The translations under genes and the position numbers were made by a program. This document shows, one piece after another, positions 3,593 to 21,479 of a DNA stretch of 38,996 bases. Position 1 is the stretch's first letter. Each line of letters begins with the position of its first letter. The notes beneath the pieces are model-generated. The model was not told the DNA's origin and made no database searches. It saw only the letters and a list, made by a program, of their open reading frames with translations. The stretch is taken from contig NZ_MRBY01000034.1 of the NCBI RefSeq assembly GCF_001904615.1, forward strand, positions 5,028 to 44,023, given 5' to 3'. The stretch comes from [Limnothrix rosea] IAM M-220 (GTDB lineage: Bacteria > Cyanobacteriota > Cyanobacteriia > Cyanobacteriales > MRBY01).

Positions 3593-3665
3593 AGAAATAA
3601 TTCGGCAAAGGAGTCTTGGGTAGTGTACAAAATTGACAGCGCTCTTTGTGTTTGGACATAAGCTC

Positions 3666-4331: not shown

Positions 4332-4342
4332 TTGGGTGAAGT

Positions 4343-4906: not shown

Positions 4907-4998
4907 GGCTAGATCTCTACTCGTGCTTAAGGGTCTTTAGTTCCATGGTAGTCAGCAAAAAATTGCTTTTAGAAAAGTCTTAATTTTTGGTTGTATTT

Positions 4999-5034
4999 AT
5001 ATCTGTTTGAATATCTGTTCGAATATCTGTTTGC
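4999..5034. repeat. 12-bp tandem repeat, three copies
   Basis: Three head-to-tail copies of a 12-mer lie at 4999-5010, 5011-5022 and 5023-5034, of the form ATATCTGTTTGA with one or two substitutions. They lie in the 307-bp non-coding gap 4907-5213. Just downstream is a 19-bp direct repeat, AATAAAGGCGATCGCCCTA, at 5037-5055 and 5103-5121, centred on HIP1 sites. No gene is visible in the gap. Confidence 0.75.
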
Positions 5035-5213
5035 CCAATAAAGGCGATCGCCCTACCCTCCTAACAGAGTGTTCAAGCCGAATGGCTTATTGAAGAAAAT
5101 CAAATAAAGGCGATCGCCCTAGGGTGATGGTTCGGTTGTCTACATTGCAGAATGCTTTTAAATATGCCTAGGATAAAAAGGCGTAACATTAAAATCTTTA
5201 CCTGTATTTAGTG

Positions 5214-5351
5214 ATGACTAAGGCACAAACAAAGCAATCACAATCCCAGCAATCTGAAGAACAAGAAAAAATCCTCTGCCCCCATTGCAAGCGCACGGCA
5301 ACAAATGGCATTAAATGCAAGGGCATCTGTGTTGCAGATGATGATTACTAA
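5214..5351 (+). CDS. Small zinc-ribbon protein (45 aa)
   Basis: A 45-codon frame encodes a Gln/Ser/Lys-rich N-terminus of about 18 residues. A compact four-cysteine unit follows: CPHC at residues 22-25, then C35 and C39 in CKGIC, ending VADDDY. The C-x2-C ... C-x3-C spacing, with an H in the first knuckle, suggests a single zinc ribbon or metal-binding knuckle. The acidic aromatic terminus looks deliberate rather than random. The ATG at 5214 is directly preceded by a GTG that could also start translation. It is too short for most gene callers. The function is unknown; nucleic-acid or protein binding is an inference from the zinc-ribbon look only. Confidence 0.65.
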   Translation: MTKAQTKQSQSQQSEEQEKILCPHCKRTATNGIKCKGICVADDDY

Positions 5352-5415
5352 TAGAAATTATTGATGCTAGTTGTGCCTAACTAGTGCACTTTTTGTTTGG
5401 ATATTTTCGATTTAC

Positions 5416-5736
5416 TTAGACAAAAAAGAGGGCAATATTAAGCATAATCAAGACCCCTAATAAGGTCAGGTTAATTTGAATTTCCCTGCGACTTTCCGTG
5501 ATTTTATTCCCTAATATTTTTTTCGTTTTATCTTTGAGATAGCGTTGAAGAAAAAAAGGTAGCCGATCAAAGTACTTTTTGTACTTTAAAATCGAAACCA
5601 CCACATTGAAAACATTAAATAAAGTAATGCCAAGCATTGCCCAGCGGTACAGGCTATAAAAATTTAGATTGCCATCAAAAGATAATAGAATCTGTGGAAA
5701 AAAATTGGTGATTTCAATAGAGGTTGGCATTTCCAT
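5416..5736 (-). CDS. Small membrane protein, unknown function
   Basis: The product is not recognised. It has about 106 residues with two hydrophobic segments: residues about 28-48 (RWAMLGITLFNVFNVVVSI) and the C-terminal LLGVLIMLNIALFFV. Between them is a strongly basic loop rich in Lys and Arg, likely cytoplasmic. The annotated ATG at 5736 follows an in-frame TTG at 5739; a third possible start is the ATG at 5730. It is convergent with the zinc-ribbon gene and stands alone. Codon use is A+T rich compared with its neighbours. Confidence 0.55.
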   Translation of the reverse strand: MEMPTSIEITNFFPQILLSFDGNLNFYSLYRWAMLGITLFNVFNVVVSILKYKKYFDRLPFFLQRYLKDKTKKILGNKITESRREIQINLTLLGVLIMLNIALFFV

Positions 5737-5889
5737 CAATGTTGACTTTCTGTGGTACTAAAGCAGATCTCAATCAATGATCAATTAACAAATCGCGTGA
5801 ACCCGCACCTATTTAGGTTCGGTTCTACAGGTTCTTTTTTTTGCGGAATGCACTTATTATCAACCTAGCTTGGTCGAGAAAACAGTTTT

Positions 5890-7290
5890 ATGAATGCAAA
5901 TTTTGAACTAGATCAGTTAGAAATCAGTAAGACGATTAGTTCTGTGCTGCGGCATGCAAATGAAGATTGTGATGACCAGCCAATTTCGGTAAATCAGCGT
6001 CGTCGCCAGTGGCGTGGGGCGATCGCCGCCCTAGAGAGATTATTACAAGATCAAGATCCCCAAAAACATTCAGCTGGCATGGTGCTCTCAAGTCCTAGCC
6101 CAATGTTCTGCGATCGCCAAATTTCGGAGCATTATCAGCAGGTTGTCTTTGCCCCCAAAAGTCTCCAAGAAGTTGCCATTAGTACGCTACAGCTAACGGG
6201 CATTGTGGAAGATTGTCCAAGTACTGCGACCCATAGCTTTTTAGAATTTCCCATTTTTGCTAACGATCCGCTGCATCAAGAACGGTTTTGTCTCGTGCTC
6301 ACGCCGCAGTTTAGTTTTGCCATGGTCTCCGCCGATGAGGGGGGCTTCCAATTTTCCTTTGACCCGGCAGTATTTAATGAATTGTGGCAAATGTTGCGCT
6401 GGCGTATGGCGCTTACACAACCCTTTCAATTTCAAACCATTCAGCAATTGTGGCGACAGTTTGCACCCGTTGCGCCGGATTATCGCTTGGTGTCACGTTT
6501 TAGTCAGTTGATGCTGCGATCGCTCCCGGATATGAATCTCGTTACGGCCACACCGAAAACCAAACCCGTTAAAGAAAAAGTATCGGTCTCCCGGGATATT
6601 CAACCTGAGTTGGAATTGTTGCAAGCCCTGACCCACGAGATTCGGACACCCCTGACAACGATTCGCACCATGACCAAGCTATTACTAAAAAAGAAAAAGC
6701 ATTTAACAGGAGATATCGTCAAGCGCATTGAAACCATTGAGCAAGAATGCAACGAGCAGATTCGTCGTATGGAGTTAATTTTCCGAGCCGCCGAACTGGA
6801 AACGCCTTCCCACTGTCGCGAAGTTCAGCTCATTCCGACTTCCCTCGAGCAAATTTTTTACAATGGTATTCCTCTGTGGCAGAAGCAAGCCCAGCGTCGC
6901 AATGTTGATTTGCAAGTGATTTTGCCCCAAACGCTTCCCCATGTGGTGAGTGACCCTGCGATGCTCGACCAAGTGCTTTCTGGCCTGATTGAAACCTTTA
7001 CTCGACGCTTGCCTTCTGGTTCTGAGGTGCAGATTCATGTGTCGACTGCTGGTAATCAGTTAAAGCTAGAGGTTCAATCCCAAGGGATTGGGCAAAAATG
7101 TCTCGAAAAGGCGATCGGACAGTTATTGATTTTCCAGCCTGAAACGGGTAGCCTGAGCCTAAATTTTAATGTTACAAAAAATCTTTTCCATGCCCTAGGT
7201 GGTAAGCTGCGCATTCGCCAGCGCCCTTCTGGGGATGATGTTTTTACGATCTTTTTACCCCTCGGCAATAATATTTCTTTAACGGTTTAA
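5890..7290 (+). CDS. Sensor histidine kinase with degenerate ATPase domain
   Basis: This 466-residue protein has a cyanobacterial-type N-terminal region (about 1-225) with no membrane segment and no PAS or GAF pattern I can name. A Pro/Lys linker precedes a clear HisKA helix at about 240-305 with the H-box ALTHEIRTPLTT and phospho-acceptor H249. The C-terminal HATPase region is atypical. The N-box reads DQVLSGLIETFTRR, lacking both usual asparagines. The G1 motif is SQGIG, with Ser in place of the adenine-contacting Asp. A GGKLRI and a final FLPL strand are still present. The protein may have weak or no kinase activity. No response regulator is adjacent. It converges on the next gene with 12 bp between stops. 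Confidence 0.82.
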   Translation: MNANFELDQLEISKTISSVLRHANEDCDDQPISVNQRRRQWRGAIAALERLLQDQDPQKHSAGMVLSSPSPMFCDRQISEHYQQVVFAPKSLQEVAISTLQLTGIVEDCPSTATHSFLEFPIFANDPLHQERFCLVLTPQFSFAMVSADEGGFQFSFDPAVFNELWQMLRWRMALTQPFQFQTIQQLWRQFAPVAPDYRLVSRFSQLMLRSLPDMNLVTATPKTKPVKEKVSVSRDIQPELELLQALTHEIRTPLTTIRTMTKLLLKKKKHLTGDIVKRIETIEQECNEQIRRMELIFRAAELETPSHCREVQLIPTSLEQIFYNGIPLWQKQAQRRNVDLQVILPQTLPHVVSDPAMLDQVLSGLIETFTRRLPSGSEVQIHVSTAGNQLKLEVQSQGIGQKCLEKAIGQLLIFQPETGSLSLNFNVTKNLFHALGGKLRIRQRPSGDDVFTIFLPLGNNISLTV

Positions 7291-7302
7291 GTCTGGCAAG
7301 CT

Positions 7303-7896
7303 CTAGAAAATATTGAGTTGTTTGGGTTCGCTGGCTGCTGCAATAATGCGATCGCAGCCGGAGTCTGGGTGCGCCCAACGGTAATGGCATTCTTTGGGAT
7401 TTCCCCAACATAGGGCAAGGTAAACTTCGTCGCGTCCGATATCAATTTCTGCCCATTCGGCCAGCTGGGCTGCAAGGTGAATTTTATCGATGGTTAGGGG
7501 ATAGGTTTCGTGATTTTTTAGCTCCCAAAACTTTAGTCCAGAGGTGATTTGCCACCAAAATTGTAGAACTTCTGCTTTGGCGTTCTGCAAAATGATTTTG
7601 TCGGATTCAATGGCAATGAGCTGTTGGTGAATTTCTGGCAGCCGGAGGTGATGTTCTCCGACAATGAGTTCGCGCCAGATAATGCCTGACACCCCTTGTT
7701 CTAGTTGGTATTTATGGATTTGTTGGGTGAAATCTTTGCAGGCAAAGACTTTGCCCGCTTGCTCTAGATCTAGAGCCATGCTGACAATGGGGACTCCTAC
7801 ACGATCTTCCGAAGATAATAATAGGCGATCGCCCCGCCATGCGGCTTTAAGTTCTTGGTCGAGAATCCGAATGAGATCTTGGGTACTGTAGGTCAT
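7303..7896 (-). CDS. Conserved hypothetical protein
   Basis: The product is not recognised. It is a 197-residue soluble protein beginning MTYSTQDLIRILDQELKAAW. Tryptophans are frequent (for example in WRGDRLLL, WWQITSGLKFW and CWGNPKECHYRW). Two Cys near the C-terminus lie in ALCWGNPKEC, and a third in SGCDRII. The stable secondary-structure pattern and normal codon use indicate a real gene. The frame is open six codons further to a TTG at 7914, but the ATG at 7896 gives a more natural N-terminus. It is seven codons downstream of the DUF4335 gene's end on the opposite side and may be read separately from it. Confidence 0.6.
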   Translation of the reverse strand: MTYSTQDLIRILDQELKAAWRGDRLLLSSEDRVGVPIVSMALDLEQAGKVFACKDFTQQIHKYQLEQGVSGIIWRELIVGEHHLRLPEIHQQLIAIESDKIILQNAKAEVLQFWWQITSGLKFWELKNHETYPLTIDKIHLAAQLAEWAEIDIGRDEVYLALCWGNPKECHYRWAHPDSGCDRIIAAASEPKQLNIF

Positions 7897-7921
7897 GACT
7901 TCCGAGCTAGTCAATGTATTT

Positions 7922-9334
7922 CTAACGATACCCTGCCCAAGGACTGACTTCCACTACACCATTTGGTCTGAAAACAACATTTACTTGGGTTAAAGGCTCT
8001 TGGGGAATAATACTTTGACCCGGAATAATGCCTGCTGCATCGGGCTGTATCAATTCTGGTAAGGGCGTTTCATTGACTGCAGTCTCCGCCGCACCATTTC
8101 CTGAAACATAGAAGGCGATCGCCCCGTCGTCAGTCACCCCAATGCTATAGCGAAGCGCCGTATCAGTGGCAACGGTTCTACCATCTAAAGCACTGGTAAT
8201 ATCACGACGCACACTAGCTATCAAATCGCGCAGTGCATCACCGCGAACGGCACTTGTATCAAAGGCAATTTCGCGGTCATAACCGTTCCAAGGGCTGACT
8301 TCTAAAACCTTGTCGTTAAAGACAACTTTAAATTGACCCACTTCTTCTGAGTTGGCGATCGCCTCATCCACCGAAGAATAAGCCAACTGCGGTAATGGCG
8401 TTGAATTAACCAAATCCTCCGGTGTATTCTCAATCGGTTGATAACCAACAATCGCGCCATCCGTTGCCATCGATAGACGATAGGCCGCCATTTGATTGTC
8501 TGGACGATCAGTCCAAGCCTCATTCAGCGTCTGGTAAAGATAAGTTTGCATCATCGCTAAACTTAAACCATCATCAATTTCCGGTACCGCCGTCAGTAGC
8601 TGGTCTAATTCCTCATCAGAAACCACAGCCTCTTCCGGTACTGTTGCGTTCGGGTCATTTTCCGCCAAGCCCGGTGGCGTTGCACCATCCGTTGAATTTT
8701 CCGCTGTTTGTTCAATATTTTCTGTACCACCATCATTGGCTGCCTCCTCCACAGGGCGAGTTGCTTCGGGTATCGGCGCAAAAAAGAGCGCAAAAGCAGT
8801 AAGGGCAAAACCACTAACACCAATTAGAGGGGGCGTGACGCGCTCCGCTAAAGATTGTTCAGGAATGCTATAACGACGACTGAGGGGCTGTAACGATAGA
8901 CCAAAATTCGGCAAGGTGAGACCGTCCGCTAAAAATTGGTCGATCGCCTCAGTGAGATCAAACAATTCCGCCGTAGTGAGGTGAACTTCATTATGAGCTT
9001 GATCCGTCGCGCCGACATCGCCCTGTTGCCAGACAACACGGTGAATATTACTCGGTGCAATGGTTTCGATCATTACTTGACCATCCCCAGTCGTCCCCTC
9101 TGGATCAATGGGGTGCTGCATCCCACTTAATAAACCCTGGGCATATTCACTCACTGCCCGCACAAGATGGTCAAAAAAGACTTTGCCGCCATTAAGCACC
9201 TGCCGAGAAGTGACAAAGCGACATTCCACATTAGACAAGACAGCAAGGGTTTGTAGAGTGTCTCCCGTACCATCATCAAAACCTTCGAGGATCAAAGTGC
9301 AATTGGGGAGACTATATTGTCTGAGAATATTCAT
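7922..9334 (-). CDS. DUF4335 domain protein
   Basis: This 470-residue protein starts with the DUF4335 pattern: MNILRQYSLPNCTLILEGF, then ECRFVTSRQ, then FFDHLVRAVSEYAQ, in about the first 190 residues. A hydrophobic helix around 172-190 (LIGVSGFALTAFALFFAPI) is followed by an acidic, Thr/Glu/Pro-rich linker to about 240. Two related C-terminal blocks each contain a DGAI(V/A) segment and end in a VVFxxxVLEVSPWNGY-like strand. The second ends the protein at EVSPWAGYR. The architecture suggests a single-pass membrane protein with an extra-cytoplasmic or lumenal repeat region. The DUF3038 gene lies seven bases upstream, a pairing common in cyanobacteria. The role of the pair is unknown. Confidence 0.85.
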   Translation of the reverse strand: MNILRQYSLPNCTLILEGFDDGTGDTLQTLAVLSNVECRFVTSRQVLNGGKVFFDHLVRAVSEYAQGLLSGMQHPIDPEGTTGDGQVMIETIAPSNIHRVVWQQGDVGATDQAHNEVHLTTAELFDLTEAIDQFLADGLTLPNFGLSLQPLSRRYSIPEQSLAERVTPPLIGVSGFALTAFALFFAPIPEATRPVEEAANDGGTENIEQTAENSTDGATPPGLAENDPNATVPEEAVVSDEELDQLLTAVPEIDDGLSLAMMQTYLYQTLNEAWTDRPDNQMAAYRLSMATDGAIVGYQPIENTPEDLVNSTPLPQLAYSSVDEAIANSEEVGQFKVVFNDKVLEVSPWNGYDREIAFDTSAVRGDALRDLIASVRRDITSALDGRTVATDTALRYSIGVTDDGAIAFYVSGNGAAETAVNETPLPELIQPDAAGIIPGQSIIPQEPLTQVNVVFRPNGVVEVSPWAGYR

Positions 9335-9341
9335 CGTTTAC

Positions 9342-9980
9342 TTAACTAACTTCTCCATCAAATAAACTCACCCATAGTCGCTGGGTGCCAACGGTTCCAG
9401 TACAAAAAAGTAATTTCTGGAGTAAATCAAGGGCCAGTTCGTTGAGGTCTTGCTTGGACTGGTTGTAAAGCATCACCCGCACACGACGGGAGTTCATGCG
9501 ACTTTTGAAATGGGCGCGAAATCGCTCTAAATATTCAGATAAACGGAAATGGCTATCAAAGGGCAGCTGTCGGCTCCGAACTTGCTGTTCTGCCAAAAGC
9601 AGCTGGCGTAACAATGCTGTAAGCTGCTTCGCGCGATCGCCGACAATAAGCACTAAAGCCTTTGCTTGGGTGGGGGTCAAATCCCGGTGGGTGTGCGATC
9701 GCCGCCAAGGATTACTACACCGCAACCGCCAGAGAGCGACTCGATTGGTGATGATACTATCCAGCTCAAGACGTTTTGCCGAAGCAAGCATCAATTCTGA
9801 GCCACCTAGTTCGAGGGCTTCGAGAGCAAGCAGCAATAAATCAATTTGCTGTTGGGCACGTCGCGGAAAAGCCTTACCTTCCGGCAAAATATCCGGTAAA
9901 TTGCGCAGCAGATACGGTTGCTCCGATGTCGATAATTGAGATGGACTAGGGTTGGGCATTACGCTCACAGGATCATTCAT
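9342..9980 (-). CDS. DUF3038 domain protein
   Basis: This roughly 212-residue soluble protein matches DUF3038: ALELGGSELMLASAKRLEL (about 67-85), then NRVALWRLRCSNPWRR, and a C-terminal SRRVRVMLY segment. It is mostly helical. The ATG at 9980 is chosen over a TTG at 9992. The gene is immediately upstream of the DUF4335 gene with a seven-base gap, indicating one operon and probably a functional pair: this partner soluble, the other membrane-anchored. No reaction is known for either family. Confidence 0.82.
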   Translation of the reverse strand: MNDPVSVMPNPSPSQLSTSEQPYLLRNLPDILPEGKAFPRRAQQQIDLLLLALEALELGGSELMLASAKRLELDSIITNRVALWRLRCSNPWRRSHTHRDLTPTQAKALVLIVGDRAKQLTALLRQLLLAEQQVRSRQLPFDSHFRLSEYLERFRAHFKSRMNSRRVRVMLYNQSKQDLNELALDLLQKLLFCTGTVGTQRLWVSLFDGEVS

Positions 9981-10176
9981 GCTTACGGGCAAAAGTGCAC
10001 GGTTACGATATTGTTCGTCACTTCAGAAGACTAATCCGAAGAAAATCAGACGGTGACACCGTTCAAATCATAGATGACGACGTACTGATCGACGCAAATA
10101 TTAGCGGATCTGTTCGATCAGTGTAGCGCATGGTGCAAAGAAAATTTTATGGCTCAGATGAAGATAAAAAGCGGGT

Positions 10177-10476
10177 CTAGCCATCGGTCACTTCGCCAGT
10201 CACAAGCACAAAAGGCTGCACAATTAAAGTTGAGAATTTACGTCCTGCGACTCGACTCCAAGCCGTTAATTCTTCTGTCATGGGTTTACGCACCAAAGTG
10301 CCCTCCATCCACTGGCTGACCAGCGCGGTGTTATCCGTGGCGATCGCCTCACCAACCATCAACAAATCAAGGGAAGGATGAACGACAATAATCGCATCAC
10401 GAGCCGCATGGGGAGCAAGATCCTGCCATTCACTTTCCCCAAAACCCGTCTTTAATTGTTCGCGCAGATCTGACAT
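10177..10476 (-). CDS. DUF2288 family protein
   Basis: This 99-residue protein contains the DUF2288 signature: LREQLKTGFGESEWQDLAPH, then RDAIIVVHPSLDLLMVGEAI, then the Trp-containing QWMEGTLVRKPMTEELTAW. It is a small soluble alpha/beta protein found in cyanobacteria and some proteobacteria, with no known function. The frame stays open for 41 more codons upstream, but the ATG at 10476 gives the family's usual N-terminus, so the longer version is rejected. The tRNA-Gln gene lies upstream on the other strand. Confidence 0.82.
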   Translation of the reverse strand: MSDLREQLKTGFGESEWQDLAPHAARDAIIVVHPSLDLLMVGEAIATDNTALVSQWMEGTLVRKPMTEELTAWSRVAGRKFSTLIVQPFVLVTGEVTDG

Positions 10477-10629
10477 AAAACTATTGAGAGCAACTGTAAA
10501 GATGTACTGGATTTTCGAACTTTTGACAATAAAACCTGCTGATAACCGGAGTTCCCTCAACATGCCAAAACTTTTTTGCGTTATTTCTTGACAATCCAAT
10601 TTTGTCTGGATATATTAGTTAAGGCTTAA

Positions 10630-11068
<439 letters not shown>

Positions 11069-11600
11069 AATATTTTCCTCTGTTTTTATTTAGTATAAGC
11101 GGCTGATTTGTGAAGCAAAGAAAGCTGAAATCCCACGTTTTGGATAACGTTAATCGAGACAGTCCAACGCGCCAGACCAAAAATATTCTTCTTATTTTTC
11201 TAGAAAAATGATTGGGTGTCTTGCCCCACATACTGGGTCTGGGTATTCACAGGTGATGGCAAATCTTTAGTAGAGCAAAAAATCAATATTTTGACCCTAG
11301 CAAATCCATGCTTTCACCCTTACGGATCGATAAAATAGTACAACTTCCAGATAAGGTTAAGTCTTGTGTCGCTTGCTCTTCGGCACTTTGGCTGAGGTCA
11401 GACTGTTATTAAAAAATTACGATCAAGATATGTAATTTCAGCGCTCATTTATGGTTAACACGATGTTTAGGGATTGCTGCTTTGTTTCTTTAAACATTGG
11501 CAAGCAAGTTGTCTGAAGTGTGGCCGTAATTTTTTGACACAGGGTGTTGTAGGGATACCAACGAAGAAAAGGCTTGGAATCAAAAGGAAAATGTAACACG
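11069..11600. other. Intergenic region, 532 bp
   Basis: The gap lies between the divergent YbjQ and GAF-kinase genes. It holds the YbjQ ribosome-binding site at its left edge and presumably both promoters. I see no tRNA, convincing open frame, HIP1 site or clear hairpin terminator. The sequence is A+T rich. Two overlapping open frames within it lack ribosome-binding sites and are not called. Confidence 0.5.
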
Positions 11601-13025
11601 ATGAGAGCGATAGCAAACTCACCACTGGCGAATACCTATCCTGTCCCAGACAACGAATCGCAACGTCTAGAAGCTTTGCGTGACTATGGTATTTTAGACT
11701 CTTTGCCGGAACAAAGTTTTGATGATTTGACGGCGATCGCCGCCCAGATTTGTGGCACTCCCATTGCATTAATCAGCCTCATAGATGATGAGCGTCAATG
11801 GTTTAAATCTCACCTTGGTCTCAACAGTACAGAAACCCCGCGAGAACAAGCCTTTTGTGCCCATGCCATCATGCAGTCAGAACCAGTAATGGTCGTTCCA
11901 AATGCTTTAGAAGATAAGCGTTTTGCCGAAAATCCTTTAGTAACCGACGATCCCAACATTCGTTTCTACGCAGGAGCGCCATTGGTAAACTCCGATGGTT
12001 ATGCCCTCGGCACCTTGTGTGTCATTGATCAGCAGCCGCGCGAGTTGGATGTCTCCCAGAAGAACGCTCTAGCGGCCTTAGGTCGTCAAGTCATCGCTCA
12101 GCTAGAGCTGTCTAAGCAAACCCGACTTTTAAATCAAGAATTAGCAATATCAGATCAAAAACAAAATGAGCTGGCCAGTACTTTAAGACAGTTAAAACAA
12201 ACCCAAACAAGCTTGATCAATGCCGAAAAGATGTCTACTCTTGGGCATTTAGTCAGAGGCATTGCCCATGAAATCAATAATCCGATCAACTTTATTTACG
12301 GAAATATTCAAAGTCTAAAAACCTATACAAAAGAGTTACTAGAACTAATTGACTTGTATCAAAAAGAAGTCAAAGAACCATCATTAGAATTAACTACATT
12401 CAGCAAAGAAATTGACTTGGATTACCTGATCAATGATCTACCGCATTTATTTCGGTCGATGCAGAGTGGCGCTGAGCGTATTGAAAATATTGTAAAATCT
12501 CTTCGATTACTAGCTCATTTAGGCGAAAAAGGCCGGAAAAGTATTAATGTCAACACTAATTTAGAAGCTATTCTTGACTTATTGCAAGCTCAAATAGATG
12601 AACAAAAATTAGAGATTGAACTTGTGAAGGATTATGATGAAAAACTGCCCAATATCACTTGTGATGCTGGTGCTGTGAACCATGCTGTGATGCTGATACT
12701 TCATAATGCTATCGATGCTTTAAAGGAAGGGGTGGGAATCGAGCATTCAGAAGATGCGAAACCAAGAATTTCTGTATCTAGCCGGATAATTAATCCGGGT
12801 AAAATTTGTATTTCTATTGCAGACAATGCAATGGGAATTGAGCTTTCAAAACAGGAGAAGATTTTTGAACCGTTTTTTAGCACAAAGCCGATTGGGCAAG
12901 GTACAGGGCTTGGTCTAGCAATTTGTCGACAAACAATTGACCAGCATAATGGTGAATTATGTTGTTACTCTAGGGTGAATTTTGGAACCACTTTTGACAT
13001 CGTTTTACCTGTCAACAAAAGGTGA
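11601..13025 (+). CDS. GAF-domain sensor histidine kinase
   Basis: This 474-residue cytosolic kinase has a GAF domain at about residues 20-165. It includes the SLIDDERQWFKSHLGL and FYAGAPLV segments typical of GAF sensors that sit N-terminal to kinases and cyclases. A coiled-coil linker follows to about 205, then a HisKA region with GIAHEINNPINFIYGN, the H-box of the HisKA_4 type. The HATPase domain is intact: N-box ILHNAIDAL, G1 ADNAMGIE, F-box FEPFFSTK and G2 GTGLGLAI. It should autophosphorylate on His; the ligand and partner regulator are unknown and no regulator gene is adjacent. The ATG at 11601 is preferred to a TTG at 11574. Confidence 0.9.
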   Translation: MRAIANSPLANTYPVPDNESQRLEALRDYGILDSLPEQSFDDLTAIAAQICGTPIALISLIDDERQWFKSHLGLNSTETPREQAFCAHAIMQSEPVMVVPNALEDKRFAENPLVTDDPNIRFYAGAPLVNSDGYALGTLCVIDQQPRELDVSQKNALAALGRQVIAQLELSKQTRLLNQELAISDQKQNELASTLRQLKQTQTSLINAEKMSTLGHLVRGIAHEINNPINFIYGNIQSLKTYTKELLELIDLYQKEVKEPSLELTTFSKEIDLDYLINDLPHLFRSMQSGAERIENIVKSLRLLAHLGEKGRKSINVNTNLEAILDLLQAQIDEQKLEIELVKDYDEKLPNITCDAGAVNHAVMLILHNAIDALKEGVGIEHSEDAKPRISVSSRIINPGKICISIADNAMGIELSKQEKIFEPFFSTKPIGQGTGLGLAICRQTIDQHNGELCCYSRVNFGTTFDIVLPVNKR

Positions 13026-13122
13026 TTTTAATTTAGTGGTTAATGTTAGATTTTTTTTGCTGTGATGTCTGTAAAAAATAGATATTTAATTGTTGAAAAA
13101 GTCTTGGGTTAAGGTCTCAATA

Positions 13123-13578
13123 TTATGGGTTTTCTGTTTGGAGTGGTAGGACTCGGAATGTTTTACTTTGCAGAATAGGGTAGGTTTTGCCAACGGCTTC
13201 GTCAAAGGCTTTTTCTGCTGCTTGAATGGTGGCTTGGGTAATGGTTTGTTTATGTTGTATGCCTTGCCAGTGGTTGATCATGATTAGTTGGTTTGGCTGT
13301 CGGCTATCTTGCCAAATTTCTTTGCCTCGGTATTCTGGCGATCGCCGATTGATGGGATCCCAAATTTCGGTTTCTTTGGCGATAAATAATGCCTGTTCTT
13401 CTTGGGGAACTTCAAATTGTAACCACTCAATGATGTCCGTATCCTGTGATGCGGCAACGGGAGCTGCCCAATATAGGGCGACACCACCGAGGAAAATTAA
13501 GTAGCTAAGGCAACAGGCTACAAAGCTGCGTATTTTTTGTTGGGTTTTATGGGTTTTATGGGTTTTTAAATTATTCAT
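13123..13578 (-). CDS. TIGR03792-like secreted protein
   Basis: This 151-residue protein has an N-terminal basic stretch with a THKTHKT repeat. A hydrophobic signal segment ends near APVAAS, so it is probably exported. The mature domain starts IEWLQFEVP and continues with TEIWDP and KEIWQDS, then IMINHWQG. This matches the small cyanobacterial TIGR03792 family, which has an ABM-like ferredoxin fold. Function unknown. The ATG at 13578 lies inside the end of the upstream gene, overlapping it by eight bases (ATGAATAA), which implies translational coupling. The open frame continues upstream, but that would be entirely inside the neighbour. Confidence 0.72.
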   Translation of the reverse strand: MNNLKTHKTHKTQQKIRSFVACCLSYLIFLGGVALYWAAPVAASQDTDIIEWLQFEVPQEEQALFIAKETEIWDPINRRSPEYRGKEIWQDSRQPNQLIMINHWQGIQHKQTITQATIQAAEKAFDEAVGKTYPILQSKTFRVLPLQTENP

Positions 13579-14608
13579 CACCAATAATGCGTAGACGAAC
13601 ACTGGTTTCCCCTGATTCATCAAGGTCAACTTCAATGACTTCACCACTAAGAATTTCTAGGGAACCGAGGAGTGATCGCAGATAGGGATTACTTGCGCCA
13701 GTATCGACATAGAGGCGATCGGCGAGTTTACCCATGCGCTTCCACGTAGTAAAGAGTTTAACAACAGCCTGCTCCATTTGGGTCGCTTGTTTGACAAGGT
13801 CTGCGGCAGTGCCGAGACAATCTAAACGTAACGCTTCTTCTAGGGCCATTTCGAGGTCGATATTGGCTTTGCGCAAGGTTTGAACCTGGGAAGCGGAGTC
13901 CATATATTTCGCGAGACTTTTTGCCTCTGTGGTGACGCTTTTAACAGTGTCGGAGTCTGGTTTTTCGCGGATTTCTTCCTGAATTGCTGTGACGTGACTT
14001 TCCGGCAGTTTCTCCATTTCCTTGACGAGGGGCGAAAGAAAACGACTGGGTAATGCACCACTCGCAGCTTGTTCTTTGACTTCATCGGGCAGCAAATCGG
14101 AGTTCATGGTTGTCCATTCATCGGAGAGTTGCTTCACTTCTCGGCGGGTAATGCGATCGCCCTTTTGAGCTGCTTCGGAGATCAATTGCTGAATTTCGGG
14201 GGAGGATTTTGCGGTTTCAACGAAGGCATTTTTACTGAAATTATTAATGCTCGTTGCGTCTAGCTGGCCATCGGCGAGTAATGTGTCGGCACTATTGGCC
14301 AGTTCGATCAAATTGTAGGCTTGGCTTTTGGTGATTTCCCGCTGTTTTAGCCAGTTTAGAAATCCTGCACCGCGACCTTCGCCGCCTTTCTTTTCGCGAT
14401 CGCGCACCGCCCGCATAATTCTGCCGCGCCAAATATCGGTCTGGAGATCAAAGCGATCGCAGACTTGCCATGCCCGCTCAATCTGACTTTCAAACTCTGC
14501 CTCATGGAGCTTATCGTCCTCTGGATCTGGTAGCTCAAATCCAAACTCGTTGCTGGTCATTGCTGCTGCCGAAAGGTCTTCTGGTGCGATCTCAGTGAAG
14601 CTAGTCAT
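13571..14608 (-). CDS. Hypothetical protein, possible HTH DNA-binding
   Basis: The product is not firmly recognised. It is a 345-residue soluble, charged protein. Residues about 80-110 read GFLNWLKQREITKSQAYNLI, which resembles the helix-turn-helix of DUF3102-type phage and plasmid proteins (a GEWLPWLEENFGISERTAQ-like pattern). Long helices follow, with a probable coiled coil around 235-275 and a C-terminal acidic VDLDESGETSVRLRIIG strand. A DNA-binding regulator or partition-like factor is possible, but this is inference. The start is the ATG at 14608. It overlaps the TIGR03792-like gene by eight bases, so the two are coexpressed although no shared role is obvious. Confidence 0.6.
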   Translation of the reverse strand: MTSFTEIAPEDLSAAAMTSNEFGFELPDPEDDKLHEAEFESQIERAWQVCDRFDLQTDIWRGRIMRAVRDREKKGGEGRGAGFLNWLKQREITKSQAYNLIELANSADTLLADGQLDATSINNFSKNAFVETAKSSPEIQQLISEAAQKGDRITRREVKQLSDEWTTMNSDLLPDEVKEQAASGALPSRFLSPLVKEMEKLPESHVTAIQEEIREKPDSDTVKSVTTEAKSLAKYMDSASQVQTLRKANIDLEMALEEALRLDCLGTAADLVKQATQMEQAVVKLFTTWKRMGKLADRLYVDTGASNPYLRSLLGSLEILSGEVIEVDLDESGETSVRLRIIGDE

Positions 14609-14711
14609 AAATATCCGATATTTTTCCCGTAAGCCTCAATAATCTTAGAAGCGTAGACCCAATTCCGACAAGAAATTTGTTGAGATTAGCCTAATTGTCA
14701 CTGGTAGGTTT

Positions 14712-14776
14712 AGATCCCCGACTTCTTGAAAATTTCTGCGACAGGCTAGGGTTACTGCGTCAGAAATCAGGGATCT
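14712..14776. repeat. Small imperfect palindromic element
   Basis: AGATCCCCGACTTCTTGAAA at the left side and a CAGAAATCAGGGATCT-type sequence at the right form an imperfect inverted repeat across about 65 bp. The left arm matches a short dispersed palindrome common in cyanobacterial genomes. It lies in the non-coding gap 14609-14877, which also has one HIP1 site near 14862. No coding frame is seen there. Confidence 0.45.
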
Positions 14777-14877
14777 TGGCGATTATCTCCCGGAAAGTTT
14801 ACGGATGGCTTGATCGGTTGATCTATAGAAATAGGCATATGGGATTGTATTTTTTATAGGCGATCGCCATGTTGTCG

Positions 14878-15804
14878 CTAAAAGACCTTACGGCGAATTT
14901 CACCAATAATATTTAGGCCGCCCCTAGTATCGCTACAGGATTTGGCGAAACTGATCTGGTAACGGCGATCGCCGTGGAAAATAGCCTTAATATGTTTTCC
15001 TTTATCAGAAACAAGAAAACCAATTTTGGTAAGTTGCTTTTTATCTTGGGAACTAAAACTTTTAATACCTTTAAAGATATTTTCCAGCTCACTTAGAAGA
15101 TCACTTTTATGATCAACTTTTTGATTATGCTTGAGGAGATCCACCAGCAGGTCATACCGTCTACTGCCTTCTATCGTTTTATGAACCTGTTCCTCTAGGA
15201 TTTCTAAAACTAAATCATGCTTTTCATGGTCATAATAATCGATTTCTGAAGATTTTAAAATTAGATCCGTTGTGCGTACAACCTGATGAAATTGCCCTTG
15301 GGCCGTAATATCTTCCGTTAGAGTTTTTAGCTGAAATTGCAATAGTTTACTTTGCTCTGCGATCTGATTCTTCTCTTGTTTTAAATGTTCAATAACCCGT
15401 TGTGTATCTGCTTGTTCGCTACGCAGAATATTATTTTGAGCCTGTAATTTTTTGCGCTCACTGTCGAGATCGAAGTCAAGCATAAACTGCTGTAACTCTT
15501 TCTCGCTCTTCTCTAGTTTTTCTTGTAACTCTTGATTGTCCGAGGCAAGTTGCTGATTCGCTGCCCGTAAACCTTGTATTTCAGCCCGTAGCTCATCTAT
15601 GTGCCCTGTCTCGCTAATCGGTGAACCTTTAGAAATATCCTGAGTCTGTGTTCTAGTTTGAGCTTCGGTCTCTTGTAAATCAGGATGTGCAATAGCCATA
15701 GGTTTAGGTGCTATGGCAGACCGTCGAAATGTCTGTCGTATAACCGGTCCGATTAAGAGGCCAACAGCCATACCGAGCAAAACAGGAATGAGTGATTTCA
15801 ACAT
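14878..15804 (-). CDS. Membrane-anchored coiled-coil protein
   Basis: The product is not recognised. It has 308 residues: an N-terminal transmembrane helix (LIPVLLGMAVGLLIGPVI, about 4-22), a short Ala/Pro/Gln linker, and a long coiled coil from about 68 to 165 rich in Glu, Gln, Lys and Leu. A C-terminal domain of about 130 residues begins around TTDLILKSSEIDYYDHEKHD. It includes a helical segment with RRYDLLVDLLKHNQ and ends in beta-type sequence with DRRYQISFAKSCSDTRGG. The shape suggests an anchored scaffold or sensor with a globular head. The ATG at 15804 puts the helix directly at the N-terminus. Confidence 0.6.
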   Translation of the reverse strand: MLKSLIPVLLGMAVGLLIGPVIRQTFRRSAIAPKPMAIAHPDLQETEAQTRTQTQDISKGSPISETGHIDELRAEIQGLRAANQQLASDNQELQEKLEKSEKELQQFMLDFDLDSERKKLQAQNNILRSEQADTQRVIEHLKQEKNQIAEQSKLLQFQLKTLTEDITAQGQFHQVVRTTDLILKSSEIDYYDHEKHDLVLEILEEQVHKTIEGSRRYDLLVDLLKHNQKVDHKSDLLSELENIFKGIKSFSSQDKKQLTKIGFLVSDKGKHIKAIFHGDRRYQISFAKSCSDTRGGLNIIGEIRRKVF

Positions 15805-16274
15805 AATTAGTCAGCACACAAGAGACCAAGCTGCAACATAGTAGATAGGTCTATGCTACAAAAAAAATCACAAAGTTGGTTTGCTACACACTATCTCGAC
15901 GAAAAAAGTTTATGGGGAGAGCAAGATAATATGATTTTTTGATCGTCGGATAAAAAGGGTTTGCTTAATATTTTTGGTTAGGTTATTTTGCTCAATTTTA
16001 TTGACTATCGCCTAGTATTTTTGCAAGGTTAGATTCGAGTGAACATCGTTATTTTTAGAGAGAATATTCACCTAAGAATTTTTGAAATATCGTGTTTTGA
16101 TCTACTTTGTCAAAATATGGGTAATGTCCAAGTAAGTGATTTTTTTCTAGCTATGCCATACCTTTATTGAAAATATCGATATAGGGGCGATCGCCTTACC
16201 TCATAGTGGTAATTTTGGTGCGACTTTTAAGTTCATAGTCACTCTACGATTTATCTGAACTTTAAGGGAAGTAT
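15805..16274. other. Intergenic region, 470 bp
   Basis: The gap lies between two leftward genes. It is A+T rich, has one HIP1 site near 16188, and an imperfect inverted repeat TTAAGTTCA ... TGAACTTTAA at about 16225-16264 close to the permease stop that could slow or end transcription. No open frame or RNA gene is recognised. Confidence 0.45.
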
Positions 16275-17495
16275 TTATGCAACAAAATAAAGACAGATAC
16301 CACTCACTAGCCAAATATAAGCGGTGATCGCAAGATAGAACAAAATCCTTTCGACAACACTGCGTTCTCCATGATGATGACCACTCATGTGATCCGCTGA
16401 GGTTTTGAGCCAGAAAAAGACACTAGTGATGGCAAGAAAAATAATATTGAGAAAAAATGTGTAATCAATTTGAAAGCGCTCGCCTGTAGCCCCTCGCGTC
16501 ATTACCTGCTCTGGCAAAATATCTAGTGAAGCAAAACTATAATGAAGCACTAAAGATGTTGCAATCAGGGAGCCAAAGAGCAATGCCAAGATATACAAAG
16601 CCATTTTCCAGCCATAATATTTCGCATTGACTCTAATAACAGGAAAGACGACTAAATCACTAAAAATAAACGCCATCACACCGCCAAAACTTACGCCATT
16701 GTTATATAAAATTGCAGCCAAAGGAATATTTCCCATGGAACCAATGAATGTAAAAAAAGCAGCAATCGGCCCAACAATAACATTGGCAAGTACGGCAAAA
16801 AAACTTGGATTAGATTGACCTGAACCGATGAACAAGGTTTCAAAAAATACTGTTGGAACAAACACTGCAATGATACCGGCTACAGTAAACCCAATCGTGA
16901 CATCTTTCCAAACCATTCCCCATTCCATAAAGTATTTTTGTGCCACCATTTGCCAAGTCTGTAATTGCATCATCTTCTGATACAATAACTGTTTTTTTTT
17001 ATCAGCGCTATGATGACTGATTTGTTCGTTCTGAAGGCGATTGCGAGTATTCCGAATTAACCTTTTGAGGGGTTTTATGCGGTAAAGAACCCACACAAAG
17101 AAAATCAATAAAACACCACCAAGATATTCTCCAATGACAAATTCCCAACCTAAGAAAATAAAAATAATTACCCCTAGCTCAACAACTAGATTCGTTGATG
17201 CTAAAAGGAATGCCATTGTAGGAATAAAACCTGCGCCTTTTTGAAATAAAGACTTTGTCGTTGCTAATGCAGCAAAGCTACAGGAACTAGAGATAAAACC
17301 GAAAAATGTTCCTAAGACTACGCTACTTCGACCCGCGTTTCCCATTGCACCTTGGAGTTGATCTTCGGTAACAAATACTTGAATTAAGCCACTAATAATA
17401 TAGCCTAGGATAAATGCCCAAAGGGCTTTCCAAAAAAAGCCTAGGGATGTTAGGGCGGCATCACTACATAAACTCCAAAAATTGGCATCTAGCAT
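16275..17495 (-). CDS. ArsP/DUF318-type permease
   Basis: This 406-residue membrane protein has about eight to ten hydrophobic segments. The family signature is at residues about 45-75: GTFFGFISSSCSFAALATT then a G-A-G-F-I-P-T-M-A-F stretch, with a related GSMGNIPLAAILYNNGVSFG repeat near 255-275. This is the PF03773 permease family, some members of which (ArsP) export trivalent organoarsenicals; others are uncharacterised. A central cytoplasmic loop, about 138-190, is basic and helical. A His-rich MSGHHHGE lies near the C-terminus. The substrate cannot be read from sequence. An ArsA-like gene is 1.1 kb away but not in the same transcription unit. Start ATG at 17495. Confidence 0.82.
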   Translation of the reverse strand: MLDANFWSLCSDAALTSLGFFWKALWAFILGYIISGLIQVFVTEDQLQGAMGNAGRSSVVLGTFFGFISSSCSFAALATTKSLFQKGAGFIPTMAFLLASTNLVVELGVIIFIFLGWEFVIGEYLGGVLLIFFVWVLYRIKPLKRLIRNTRNRLQNEQISHHSADKKKQLLYQKMMQLQTWQMVAQKYFMEWGMVWKDVTIGFTVAGIIAVFVPTVFFETLFIGSGQSNPSFFAVLANVIVGPIAAFFTFIGSMGNIPLAAILYNNGVSFGGVMAFIFSDLVVFPVIRVNAKYYGWKMALYILALLFGSLIATSLVLHYSFASLDILPEQVMTRGATGERFQIDYTFFLNIIFLAITSVFFWLKTSADHMSGHHHGERSVVERILFYLAITAYIWLVSGICLYFVA

Positions 17496-17645
17496 TAATA
17501 ATTAGTTCTTTAGTTCTGAGAATGATCATAACGGAGATCTTGTCTTACTTAGATTGGGCATCAGTAAGATATTTATCTATATCAGAAGTAAGACTTTTTT
17601 GGGATTTCCATATCGATTGTGTTTAATAGATGTGAACTTTCCTAA

Positions 17646-17813
17646 TTAAACTAAGTGCCAATTAAAGAGATAGCGATACATCTCGGTATTTTTCGCTTTC
17701 ATTGCTATTGCTGCATTGATTATGGTAGTGACTTGGGAGATAGTGATTGCCGCTGGATGATGCCGTAATATGTAGCTTAAAAATTTACTCATCACGACCA
17801 AATCTAACTGCAT
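17646..17813 (-). pseudogene. Chimeric relic: kptA 5' end fused to DUF4870 3' end
   Basis: From an ATG at 17813 the frame encodes QLDLVVMSKFLSYILRHHP, the N-terminus of a KptA/Tpt1 RNA 2'-phosphotransferase. KptA is normally about 180 residues with a conserved S-K-x-L-S-x-x-L-R-H. After about 23 residues the similarity stops. The frame then continues into INAAIAMKAKN and MYRYLFNWHLV, which copies the end of the DUF4870 protein encoded just upstream (INAAMKAKN, MYRYPFNLRLL). At the DNA level about 100 bp (17650-17756) match 17870-17965. Neither the phosphotransferase core nor the membrane part of DUF4870 remains. An AAGG site precedes the ATG, so a 55-residue chimera could still be made, but it should be non-functional. 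Treat as a pseudogene. Confidence 0.7.
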
Positions 17814-17862
17814 GGCGATCGCCTTTTCACCGGGGAAAACACAAACTTTTGTAAGTTGAAAA

Positions 17863-18324
17863 TTACAATAATCGCAGATTAAAAGGATAGCGATACATTT
17901 CGCCATTTTTTGCTTTCATCGCTGCATTAATCACTACAATGACTTGGAAGATGGCGATCGCCAGCATCAGACCAACAGCCAAGATAAAGCCAAAGCCCGT
18001 AACAAAGCTAAGTAGAACGGCGAAGAAATTACCTTCTGTTGCACCGACGATTAAAAGAAAAAAGATAAAAATACCAATCAGCACCATAAAAGCGATGCCC
18101 GCAACAACACCATAAATCGCCATTGAAATTTGAAAATTAGTAGACTCTTTGCCATGCTCATCAATGAGCTTAGACTCGTCTTTTTTGAGATACCAAATGA
18201 CCGCTGGGGCGATGATATTGAGAAATGGAATAGCACCAATCCCAATTAGCGACAATGGAATCCATGCCAAGCTCGCCGCATGACAGGCGATCGCCCAATT
18301 TTTTTCCTGTTTTACGTCCATCAT
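17863..18324 (-). CDS. DUF4870 membrane protein
   Basis: This 153-residue protein matches DUF4870 (Tic20-like small membrane proteins). It has NWAIACHAASLAWIP at the start, then FLNIIAPAVIWYLKKDES, an ESTNFQISMAIYG segment, and two C-terminal hydrophobic stretches ending AIFQVIVVINAAMKAKNG and RYPFNLRLL. Three to four transmembrane helices are expected. Function unknown. The start is ATG 18324 or the immediately following ATG at 18321. A degenerate copy of its 3' end lies 100 bp downstream inside the kptA relic. Confidence 0.82.
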   Translation of the reverse strand: MMDVKQEKNWAIACHAASLAWIPLSLIGIGAIPFLNIIAPAVIWYLKKDESKLIDEHGKESTNFQISMAIYGVVAGIAFMVLIGIFIFFLLIVGATEGNFFAVLLSFVTGFGFILAVGLMLAIAIFQVIVVINAAMKAKNGEMYRYPFNLRLL

Positions 18325-18590
18325 GGGTATTTTGCCAACTCAACTTTCCAAGTCTAGGATAAATAAAAAATCTCTCCATCCCCAATTCGGACAGAGAGAC
18401 GCAATATTATTTAGTGAATTGAACGAATTTTATGGGCTACTGCACAAGAGAGGGCGATCGCCCAAACTGAACCCCCTAATATTCCTAATATTCAATATAT
18501 TTGTGAGACGACTGAAAAACTCAAGTCCCCCCCACAAAAGAAGATTTAGGAGAGCTTATACCCCAGACAAAATTGAACAAGCTATCGTTA

Positions 18591-19766
18591 CTAAGCCGCA
18601 AACTTAATCTTGAGATAATCCTCTTCGATCTTCGCACCAGAAGGATTAAGCGCCGCTAGCGCCTGGGGCAAAACAAGATTGCGACGGTGATTACCAATGC
18701 GAATATTGAGTTCATCACCAGTCTTATTTAGCTGAATCTGCTCCTTCGGAATCCCCGGCAAATAAAGCTCAAGACTATAGCTCTGATCATGTTGGATCAT
18801 CCGCATCGTATCTTCCTTGTAATAAACTTGGGTCGGATCTTCATCCGCATAGAGAGTATGCTTCAACCGCTCCAGCGCCTCTAGGCCGCATAGCTCCTCT
18901 TGATATAACGGCACTTCCTTCACAGGTAAAGGCAAGAAATTATCATGGATTTCCTGCTTATACGTTTGTTGATTTTCCTTCCACTGCTTAAAAAACGGGT
19001 CTTCAACAGTGTCTGGAATAATCCGGTTTGCCACAACCATATCCGTCGCAACGTTATACAAACTTAAATAGGCATGGGCGCGTAAAGACTCCTTAATCAC
19101 CATCCGCTCAGGATTCGTCACCAGACGCACAGAGGTGACAGTGTTGTCCGTTAGCACCTTTTCAAGAGCTTCAATCTGCTCATAAAATTCGTAGGGCGCA
19201 TCCATCACTTCTTTATCAGGCAAAGAAAAACCCACCAAAGGCTTCCAAATAGGTTCCACAAGGGGACGTAATGCCACAGACATACCCTGAAGCGGCTTAT
19301 AAAAACGGCGCATATACCAGCCCCCAACTTCCGGCAAACTGAGGAGGCGTAGCGCTGTGCCAGTGGGGGCAGAGTCAATAATGAGAACGTCGTAAGTGCC
19401 TTCGTCATAGTGACGCTTCATGCGGACGAGGCCAAAAATTTCGTCCATACCGGGTAGGATCGCGAGTTCTTCTGCCTGCACACCATCTAAACCCCTAGCC
19501 TGTAGGACTTCAGTAATGTAGCGCTTTACCGCGCCCCAGTTTCCTTCGAGTTCGCGGAGAGCATCAAGTTCTGCTCCCCAAAGATTTTCTTTGACTTTGA
19601 TGGGATCATGACCGAGCTCTATATCAAAGCTATCGGCAAGGGAGTGAGCTGGATCGGTACTCAGAACAAGGGTTTTGTAGCCAAGCTCGGCACAGCGTAA
19701 ACCAGTGGCTGCTGCGACAGAGGTTTTACCAACACCTCCTTTTCCAGTCATTAAGATTACGCGCAT
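18591..19766 (-). CDS. ArsA-like ATPase with HSP20-like tail
   Basis: This 391-residue protein is an ArsA/GET3-family P-loop ATPase. It has the deviant Walker [10 protein letters not shown] at the N-terminus, [13 protein letters not shown] (the family's switch I region), and [14 protein letters not shown] (the family's DSAPTGHTLR site). It is a single-domain form of the sort widespread in cyanobacteria and not tied to arsenite export. From about residue 310 the chain becomes [17 protein letters not shown] and ends with EEDYLKIKF, an ArsA-type HSP20-like beta-sandwich. A targeting or chaperone role is more likely than ion pumping. The ATG at 19766 ([11 protein letters not shown]) is preferred because homologues begin there; an in-frame ATG lies five codons upstream. 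Confidence 0.85.
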
Positions 19767-20030
19767 AGTGCGTTTTTCCATTAGATGAGAGTTTTTTACA
19801 TTTCTTCATTAATTATCTCTTACATGCTTGACTTTGCGCTATGGGTATAGGGATAAAGAGGCTTGATTTTACTTTGATTCACCCTTGTTCTCGGTAAAGT
19901 CAGTAAAATTAACGACAGAATTCGTAACTAAGATTTCGCTGAAGTGAGATGGTTGGTGGCGAAAAGAAGGGTATTCCTGAATAGAGGGATCAGCATGAAT
20001 TTTGTCAGTGTAAGGATCAGCCAAACTTAA

Positions 20031-21479
20031 ATGAAGCGATCGCCCCTATTGCGTAAGCTTAGGTTTTTCCTGCGTCGTCTTGTTGCCGAGCAAATTGTTC
20101 TGGTTTTGACGCTGTTATTTTGTGTTGGCGCAACGCTAACCGTTGTGAGTGTATGGCAATTATCGGAGCAGTTGATCCAATCCCAAGCGCAGCAAAATGC
20201 GGCAACCTCCGTGCAAAATCTGCAAATGGCGCGCACTCTCTACAGCGACAGCGTTGTGGGTCGTATTCGAGAACAAGCAGGCATTACGGCCACCCATGAC
20301 TATCGAAATATTGCTGGAGGCATTCCGTTACCAGCGACTTATTTTATTGAGCTAGGGGAGCAAATTAGTTCAAATCAAGCGGGTGTTGGGGTGCGGTTAT
20401 ACAGTAACTATCCTTTTCCTTGGCGAAAGGAAACGGGTGGTGCGAGGGATCAGTTTGAGCGGGAGGCGATCGCCTTCCTAGAGCAACACCCTGAGCAAAC
20501 CTTTGCCAATGTTGAAACCTTTGCTAACCGTTTATCTCTACGTTATGCCGCAGCAGATGTGATGAAGCCGAGCTGCATTGCTTGCCATAATAGCCATCCA
20601 GATTCTCCGCGCAGAAATTGGCAAGTAGGCGATGTGCGAGGCGTTGTCGAAGTGATTCAGCCCCTTGATAGCTTGGTGCAAAAGACCCAGTGGAATTTAG
20701 TGGGTTTGTTGGGTTTATTGTTAACGCTATTTATTTTGGGTTTATCGGGATTGGTGATTGCCATTCGTCGCCTCAACAATATTTCTCAAAATTTAGAGCT
20801 AGAAGTGATTGAGCGTACCGCTGATCTTGTTAATGCCAACCAAGAACTGCTTTTTGAACAGGAAAAATCCAATAGTTTATTACTCAATATTTTGCCGCCA
20901 AAAATTGCGCGACAGCTAAAGGACGGTAGTAAACCCGTTGCTGATGGTTTTGGTAATGTCACTATTTTATTCGCCGATATTGTGGGGTTTACTAAGTTAT
21001 CGGAAAGCTATCCACCGCGCGAATTAGTTGATTTATTAAATGAAATTTTTTCTGCTTTTGATAATCTCTGTGAAAGTCTGCGTCTAGAGAAAATTAAAAC
21101 CATTGGTGATGCCTATATGGTTGCGGCTGGCCTACCAGAACCCCGCGAAGACCATGCCGCGGCGATCGCCGAAATGGCATTAGCAATGCAACGAGAATTA
21201 ATGAAAATTAATGTCGCCAAAAACATCAATATTACGTTGCGTATCGGGATTAATAGCGGCCCCGTTGTCGCAGGTGTGATTGGTAAGAAAAAGTTCATCT
21301 ATGACCTTTGGGGCGATGCCGTCAATACAGCAAGTCGCATGGAATCCCACGGGCTACCCGGACAAATTCAAGTCACAGAATCAACCTACGAACTCCTAAA
21401 AAATCAATATCACTTTGAACCAAGAGGTGCGATTGAAATTAAAGGAAAAGGAAAAATGCAGACCTATTTTCTTCAATAA
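20031..21479 (+). CDS. Adenylate cyclase with haem-binding Tll0287-like sensor
   Basis: This 482-residue protein has a membrane segment at about 19-41, an outside sensor domain to about 215, a second segment at about 222-246, a short linker helix, then a class III nucleotide cyclase domain (about 303-480). The sensor contains CIACH at 182-186, the c-type haem motif of the DUF3365/Tll0287-like family. The cyclase keeps the two metal-binding Asp residues (D316 in FADIVGF, D360 in IGDAYM). The base-selecting residues are K356 in KIKTIGD and D425 in YDLWGD, the pair that specifies ATP over GTP. It should make cAMP in response to a redox, light or gas signal sensed by haem. Start ATG at 20031. Confidence 0.9.
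   Translation: MKRSPLLRKLRFFLRRLVAEQIVLVLTLLFCVGATLTVVSVWQLSEQLIQSQAQQNAATSVQNLQMARTLYSDSVVGRIREQAGITATHDYRNIAGGIPLPATYFIELGEQISSNQAGVGVRLYSNYPFPWRKETGGARDQFEREAIAFLEQHPEQTFANVETFANRLSLRYAAADVMKPSCIACHNSHPDSPRRNWQVGDVRGVVEVIQPLDSLVQKTQWNLVGLLGLLLTLFILGLSGLVIAIRRLNNISQNLELEVIERTADLVNANQELLFEQEKSNSLLLNILPPKIARQLKDGSKPVADGFGNVTILFADIVGFTKLSESYPPRELVDLLNEIFSAFDNLCESLRLEKIKTIGDAYMVAAGLPEPREDHAAAIAEMALAMQRELMKINVAKNINITLRIGINSGPVVAGVIGKKKFIYDLWGDAVNTASRMESHGLPGQIQVTESTYELLKNQYHFEPRGAIEIKGKGKMQTYFLQ

Follow-up and report, generated by a model that had tools for sequence, protein, structure and literature searches.

Template switching and short tandem duplication are models for the pseudogenes that arise when DNA is rearranged at short homologies. 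In cyanobacteria, Gupta et al. are said to have described, in 1993, a deletion associated with the palindrome HIP1 at the metallothionein (smtB) locus of Synechococcus PCC 6301, and Robinson et al. reportedly described HIP1-promoted excision in 1997. HIP1 as a promoter of deletions is an older idea and not a new one. An excerpt of one later paper, which cites both reports, states that HIP1 had been proposed to promote gene rearrangements (PMC6331805), and an excerpt of another reports some sign of site-specific recombination at HIP1 and no evidence tying it to homologous recombination (PMC4390886). The DUF4870 family (PF09685) is named HOTT, and linked to Tic20, in an excerpt of a third (PMC11628618). 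Here we describe a locus at which the first codons of a kptA gene, of the KptA/Tpt1 family (PF01885), are joined to a second copy of the end of a neighboring DUF4870 gene. We regard it as probably a nonfunctional relic, left when one lineage lost kptA, with a joint that was presumably made by short local copying.

The locus lies in the window, by which we mean the whole stretch of 38,996 bases that was analyzed, and it is listed there as an 86-aa open reading frame (ORF) on the minus strand (17646-17906). In this ORF, 23 kptA codons are fused in phase to a diverged 3' end of DUF4870 of about 100 nt. The ATG that derives from kptA is at 17811-17813; the listed start at 17906 reflects a frame that happens to be open. 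The kptA stub (MQLDLVVMSKFLSYILRHHPAAI; 17745-17813, minus strand) is identical to the kptA gene of G005, a genome of the same genus, at 57 of 69 nt and 19 of 23 amino acids, and its alignment score of 237 was reached by none of 500 dinucleotide shuffles (mean, 77). The decayed copy (17646-17750, minus strand) corresponds to the last 99 nt of DUF4870 including the stop codon, overlaps the stub in the joint zone, and carries a tandem duplication of 6 nt (AGCAAT twice; 17701-17712, minus strand). Its score against the intact DUF4870 gene was 260, with 0/500 shuffles as good (mean, 87). The intact gene (153 aa; 17863-18324, minus strand; PF09685, E 5.7e-32) provides the source of the copied tail at 17863-17961, and the spacer between it and the kptA ATG occupies 17814-17862 (minus strand). 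A repeat finder reports part of the duplication as a direct repeat with 79% identity over 63 nt (17644-17706 and 17861-17923). These results demonstrate that the in-frame chimera of kptA and DUF4870 sequences that was noted in a preliminary description of this DNA is real, with both of its parts beyond the reach of the shuffles. The repeat was likewise placed there correctly to within a few bases (17650-17756 and 17870-17965, here re-placed at 17646-17750 and 17863-17961).

Neither part of the ORF scores above the curated cut-off of its family. Residues 37 to 56 match positions 4 to 23 of the 177 positions of PF01885 (E 0.037; 14.5 bits, cut-off 26), and residues 15 to 86 match PF09685 (E 0.019, 15.4 bits, under the curated cut-off of 25; the intact neighbor scores 110.4 bits). 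The relic thus holds neither a full-length KptA domain nor a DUF4870 domain that scores above the curated cut-off. It has the mark of a pseudogene in that most of the parent is missing, with 23 of 181 kptA codons remaining. On the 3' side of the relic stop codon, in the spacer that leads to the next gene (17496-17645, minus strand), the matches to kptA and to the spacer between DUF4870 and kptA were no better than shuffles (144/500 and 295/500 as good, respectively). A comparison of phage records with positions 17500-18600 of the window gave no match, and a comparison of Rfam with positions 14000-20000 gave nothing at the gathering score.

The preliminary description had proposed that kptA once stood here, and had suggested an alignment with relatives that keep an intact kptA or two DUF4870 genes. 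The first kind of relative was found in G005, where arsA is followed by DUF4870 (74% aa identity) and then by an intact kptA, which starts with an ATG 62 nt past the DUF4870 stop codon. The gene order in the window is arsA, DUF4870, kptA stub, and this synteny, along with the nucleotide identity of the stub, indicates that the relic descends from a kptA at the same locus. In G004 the DUF4870 orthologue (64% aa) also adjoins arsA, and kptA is found on another contig (L063), beside short ORFs that resemble an AbrB/PIN pair. A search for the kptA family gave no match in G001 to G003 or in the genome of the window. When the G005 KptA protein was compared with this genome at permissive E values of up to 10, the stub alone was matched, by residues 1 to 26. 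The distribution of kptA is patchy, with matches in 2 of 6 genomes of the genus and in 35 of 60 relatives, these six included. Because of the synteny with G005 and because no other kptA was found in the genome of the window, the sequences support the view that kptA once stood at this locus and has since been lost. We infer that the ancestor common to the lineage of the window and G005 had kptA here.

The new neighbor of the relic is an ArsP-type permease gene (16275-17495, minus strand; PF03773, E 9.8e-55), whose best plasmid match is 56% identical (Alteromonas macleodii), and beyond it lies a gene of 308 aa (14878-15804, minus strand) with weak Pfam matches below the cut-off. Neither of the two genes gave a match at E <= 0.001 in the other genomes of the genus (0/5 for each). 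They occupy the interval between two blocks that are distant from each other in relatives: the gene at 13571-14608 and DUF4870 are about 257 kb apart in G005, more than 1 Mb apart in G001 to G003, and on different contigs in G004. Window positions 3131-14688 align with one region of G005 in three pieces, and the window from 17,739 rightwards aligns with another, in the opposite orientation. With flanking blocks that are distant in relatives and two genes between them that were not found in the five other genomes of the genus, the relic thus stands at the boundary of a lineage-specific rearrangement. To judge from these searches, the ArsP-type permease gene may have been acquired.

The other side of this rearrangement could not be traced. 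The G005 sequence beyond kptA gave short matches alone in the genome of the window (up to 110 nt), and the far sides of the G005 regions gave one further match of 222 nt besides a known gene, together with kinase domains of up to 42% aa identity. An inversion traced on both sides was considered and was set aside, because so little of the far sides of G005 is left in this genome. Further differences between the two genomes were also seen. By blastn, window positions 7272-13179 (about 5.9 kb, with a tRNA-Gln gene at 10648-10721) match nothing at the equivalent site of G005; there the sequences that flank them are separated by about 100 nt (L113, 5312 and 5412). The single gene at 20031-21479 of the window aligns with two adjoining cyclase-like genes of G005 (L061, 2-814 and 1033-2502), to which it is 79% and 69% identical at the amino acid level by tblastn. 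To the right of the G005 orthologue of the gene at 13571-14608 lie several ORFs that are presumably transposase-like (L113, 7612-11777), and G005 may also have been rearranged near these positions.

The joint itself can be narrowed to a zone of 13 nt (GGCAATCACTATC; 17739-17751, minus strand) that fits both kptA (GGCAATCGGTATC in G005) and DUF4870 (GGCGATCGCCATC). The kptA side was read from G005 as a proxy, as the kptA lost from the lineage of the window can no longer be read. With G005 kptA and the DUF4870 gene of the window as the parents, 10 of the 13 positions agree, a level attained by 22 of 20,000 joints placed at random. When the width was varied from 6 to 20 nt, an equally good match was seen for 8 to 152 of 6000 such joints. 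When the DUF4870 gene of G005 itself was used, 7 of 13 positions agreed, which 3% of position pairs also reach. Short homology at the joint is therefore likely on this comparison. On the donor side it includes a HIP1 site (GCGATCGC; 17954-17961, identical on both strands) that is present at the same place in all six genomes of the genus. On the side of kptA, G005 reads GCAATCGG, which is off HIP1 at 2 of 8 bases. The relic reads GCAATCAC at the joint, with GCAATC at 17745-17750. The HIP1 site of the intact copy and the GCAATC of the relic are both as given in the preliminary description, and the HIP1 sites that it suggested looking for at the breakpoints are there on the DUF4870 side and not on the kptA side, where HIP1 was found at this position in none of 30 kptA genes (those obtained from the 35 genomes with a kptA match). 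A deletion between HIP1 sites would have HIP1 at both parental breakpoints and leave one at the joint, and this arrangement was not found. HIP1 is common here, with 58 occurrences in the 38,996 bases and 5.6% of DUF4870 positions within 6 nt of a HIP1 center, so that a joint falling on HIP1 is mild evidence. Another HIP1 site (17815-17822) lies in the spacer, directly 5' of the kptA start codon, both in the window and in G005 (L061, about 4585), although the spacers of the two genomes differ over much of their length.

That HIP1 sites may promote deletions in general, as was also suggested, gained nothing from a comparison of indels between two relatives, G002 and G003 (200 kb each; 181 kb aligned at 89.6%). 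HIP1 was at the end of 0/9 indels of at least 20 nt (0.5 expected), 1/33 of at least 9 nt (about 1.6 expected) and 1/66 of at least 6 nt (2.8 expected). There is no excess of HIP1 in this comparison, which has low power and in which the random sites were unmatched for coding and spacer sequence.

How could such a joint have been formed? Either a template switch or a short tandem duplication would suffice, and, taking the two together, we think it rather probable that one of them, and not the duplication of a whole gene followed by a deletion, produced the fusion. During DNA synthesis through kptA, a strand end at GGCAATCG would have re-paired about 210 nt back with GGCGATCGCC in DUF4870, and the re-paired strand would have copied the DUF4870 tail a second time. 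The template switch may have been part of the rearrangement that introduced the ArsP side, which would make one complex event. Alternatively, a tandem duplication of about 210 bp may have arisen, and a second, complete kptA would later have been lost with the rearrangement, which would make two events. In either case HIP1 would be one side of a stretch of short homology, and a whole second DUF4870 would be unnecessary.

The preliminary description offered a different history, with a tandem duplicate of DUF4870 and a later deletion. Spelled out, the whole gene, alone or together with kptA, would first have been duplicated in tandem, and the deletion would then have joined a HIP1-like stretch of kptA to the HIP1 site of the second DUF4870. 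These two steps would yield exactly the same joint, they would start from a donor-side HIP1 site that all six genomes keep, and a HIP1-associated deletion is already in print, to judge by the title under which Gupta et al. reportedly described it. The DUF4870 copy may also predate the stub. Divergence on its own branch is 19/93 in the copy against 7/69 in the stub (Fisher p 0.09; p 0.41 with ambiguous sites), and 13/66 against 4/46 at codon positions 1 and 2 alone (p 0.18). We put no weight on this difference; if real, it would fit an origin of the DUF4870 copy before the fusion, as was supposed. The tandem gene itself is not in evidence, however. At E <= 0.001 each of the five other genomes of the genus has one DUF4870 match, with no tandem pair, and the second match in the genome of the window is the relic, which matches by the tail alone. 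Of the 60 genomes searched at this threshold, 27 had matches, among which there was no tandem pair. A wider search of contigs, from which records near the genome of the window may be excluded, yielded 25 DUF4870 genes, all of them distant and none from a record with a cyanobacterial title. No relative with two neighboring DUF4870 genes was found, so the joint alone fits either a deletion or a local duplication. The absence of HIP1 from the kptA side, in G005 and in the other kptA genes, also counts against a deletion between such sites, as does, with little power, the lack of a HIP1 excess at indels. This history needs at least two events and the loss of the remainder, at least one step beyond what a short duplication requires. 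As a whole, duplication and deletion together, we consider it possible and rather unlikely.

It is improbable that the fused ORF, of 56 to 86 aa, is a functional short protein. What invites this reading is a frame that is open and in phase and that retains the stop codon of its source, together with changes in the stub that fall mostly on third positions (1:3:8 by codon position against G005) and a pairwise dN/dS of 0.21/0.78 between the copy and its source. The corresponding value for the two intact genes of the window and G005 is 0.085/1.0, and these differ at 7:0:11 sites by codon position. On the branch of the copy alone, the changes are spread evenly (5:6:6, with 6 sites ambiguous, from five outgroups; 5:7:7 with G005 as the single outgroup). 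Unconstrained drift can account for this pattern. In simulations of the 90 nt beyond the joint (1500 runs per setting, with variation of the transition bias and of the synonymous changes on the intact branch), 146 to 1018 of 1500 runs, according to the settings, gave the observed 10 amino acid changes or fewer, and 743 to 984 of 1500 runs stayed free of stop codons, so that the open frame of the copy is unremarkable. The copy is compatible with the absence of constraint, and 90 nt are too short to rule against weak constraint. The stub has 1:2:4 changes on its own branch, 3 more being ambiguous, which are too few to judge constraint, and it has replacements of its own at three positions where G004 and G005 agree. 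The 6-nt tandem duplication in the tail also speaks against a function, and joining in phase is expected in one-third of cases by chance. A short ORF conserved under selection in relatives, which would have spoken for a function, was not seen: among the matches listed for the other five genomes of the genus, none spans the joint of kptA and DUF4870. The sequences, little as there is of them, support the view that the relic is dead rather than a selected short ORF.

A broader possibility is that HIP1 palindromes are landing sites for template switches and that HIP1-rich cyanobacteria continually make in-frame chimeric ORFs from neighboring genes. We hold this to be very improbable. HIP1 encodes Ala-Ile in one frame and could link two frames in phase.

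An import of the DUF4870 tail from another genome hardly deserves credence. In its favor is the divergence of 25% between the copy and the local gene (72/96 nt identical). Against it, the local gene is the best match by a wide margin, with 52 to 59 of 96 nt identical in the five other genomes of the genus, 71.6 bits by blastn against 34.6 for the next best of the loci compared, and AAAAAT codons that the copy shares with none of the six genes but the local one. On these similarities the donor of the tail was most likely the DUF4870 gene of the window itself.

The locus looks like an ordinary gene relic and not like a new system, and it leaves the knowledge of KptA and of HIP1 unchanged. It documents the loss of kptA in one cyanobacterial lineage, with an intact relative for comparison, and it separates two claims, namely, a gene loss with a short local copy, which is well supported, and a deletion caused by HIP1, which is not shown. 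It is also a warning that an intergenic open frame of 86 aa may turn out to be a fused relic.

Compared with the KptA/Tpt1 RNA 2'-phosphotransferases (PF01885), the relic retains 23 codons from the start of a gene of this family and lacks any counterpart to 158 of the 181 residues in the G005 protein. Its tail derives from a neighboring member of the DUF4870 family and comprises merely the last 32 codons, in decayed form. The smtB deletion of PCC 6301 and HIP1-promoted excision reportedly share with it a cyanobacterial rearrangement endpoint at HIP1. Unlike those cases, the relic has one HIP1 endpoint, the other being off at the two bases noted above in the proxy parent, and its product includes a duplication. 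The relic also resembles pseudogenes formed at short homologies, which are likewise copies of parts of genes, with a joint at a short homology, located beside a change of synteny, and with changes spread evenly over the codon positions. The relic differs from a typical pseudogene of this kind in that one of the homologies is a HIP1 palindrome and in that the joint happens to be in frame.
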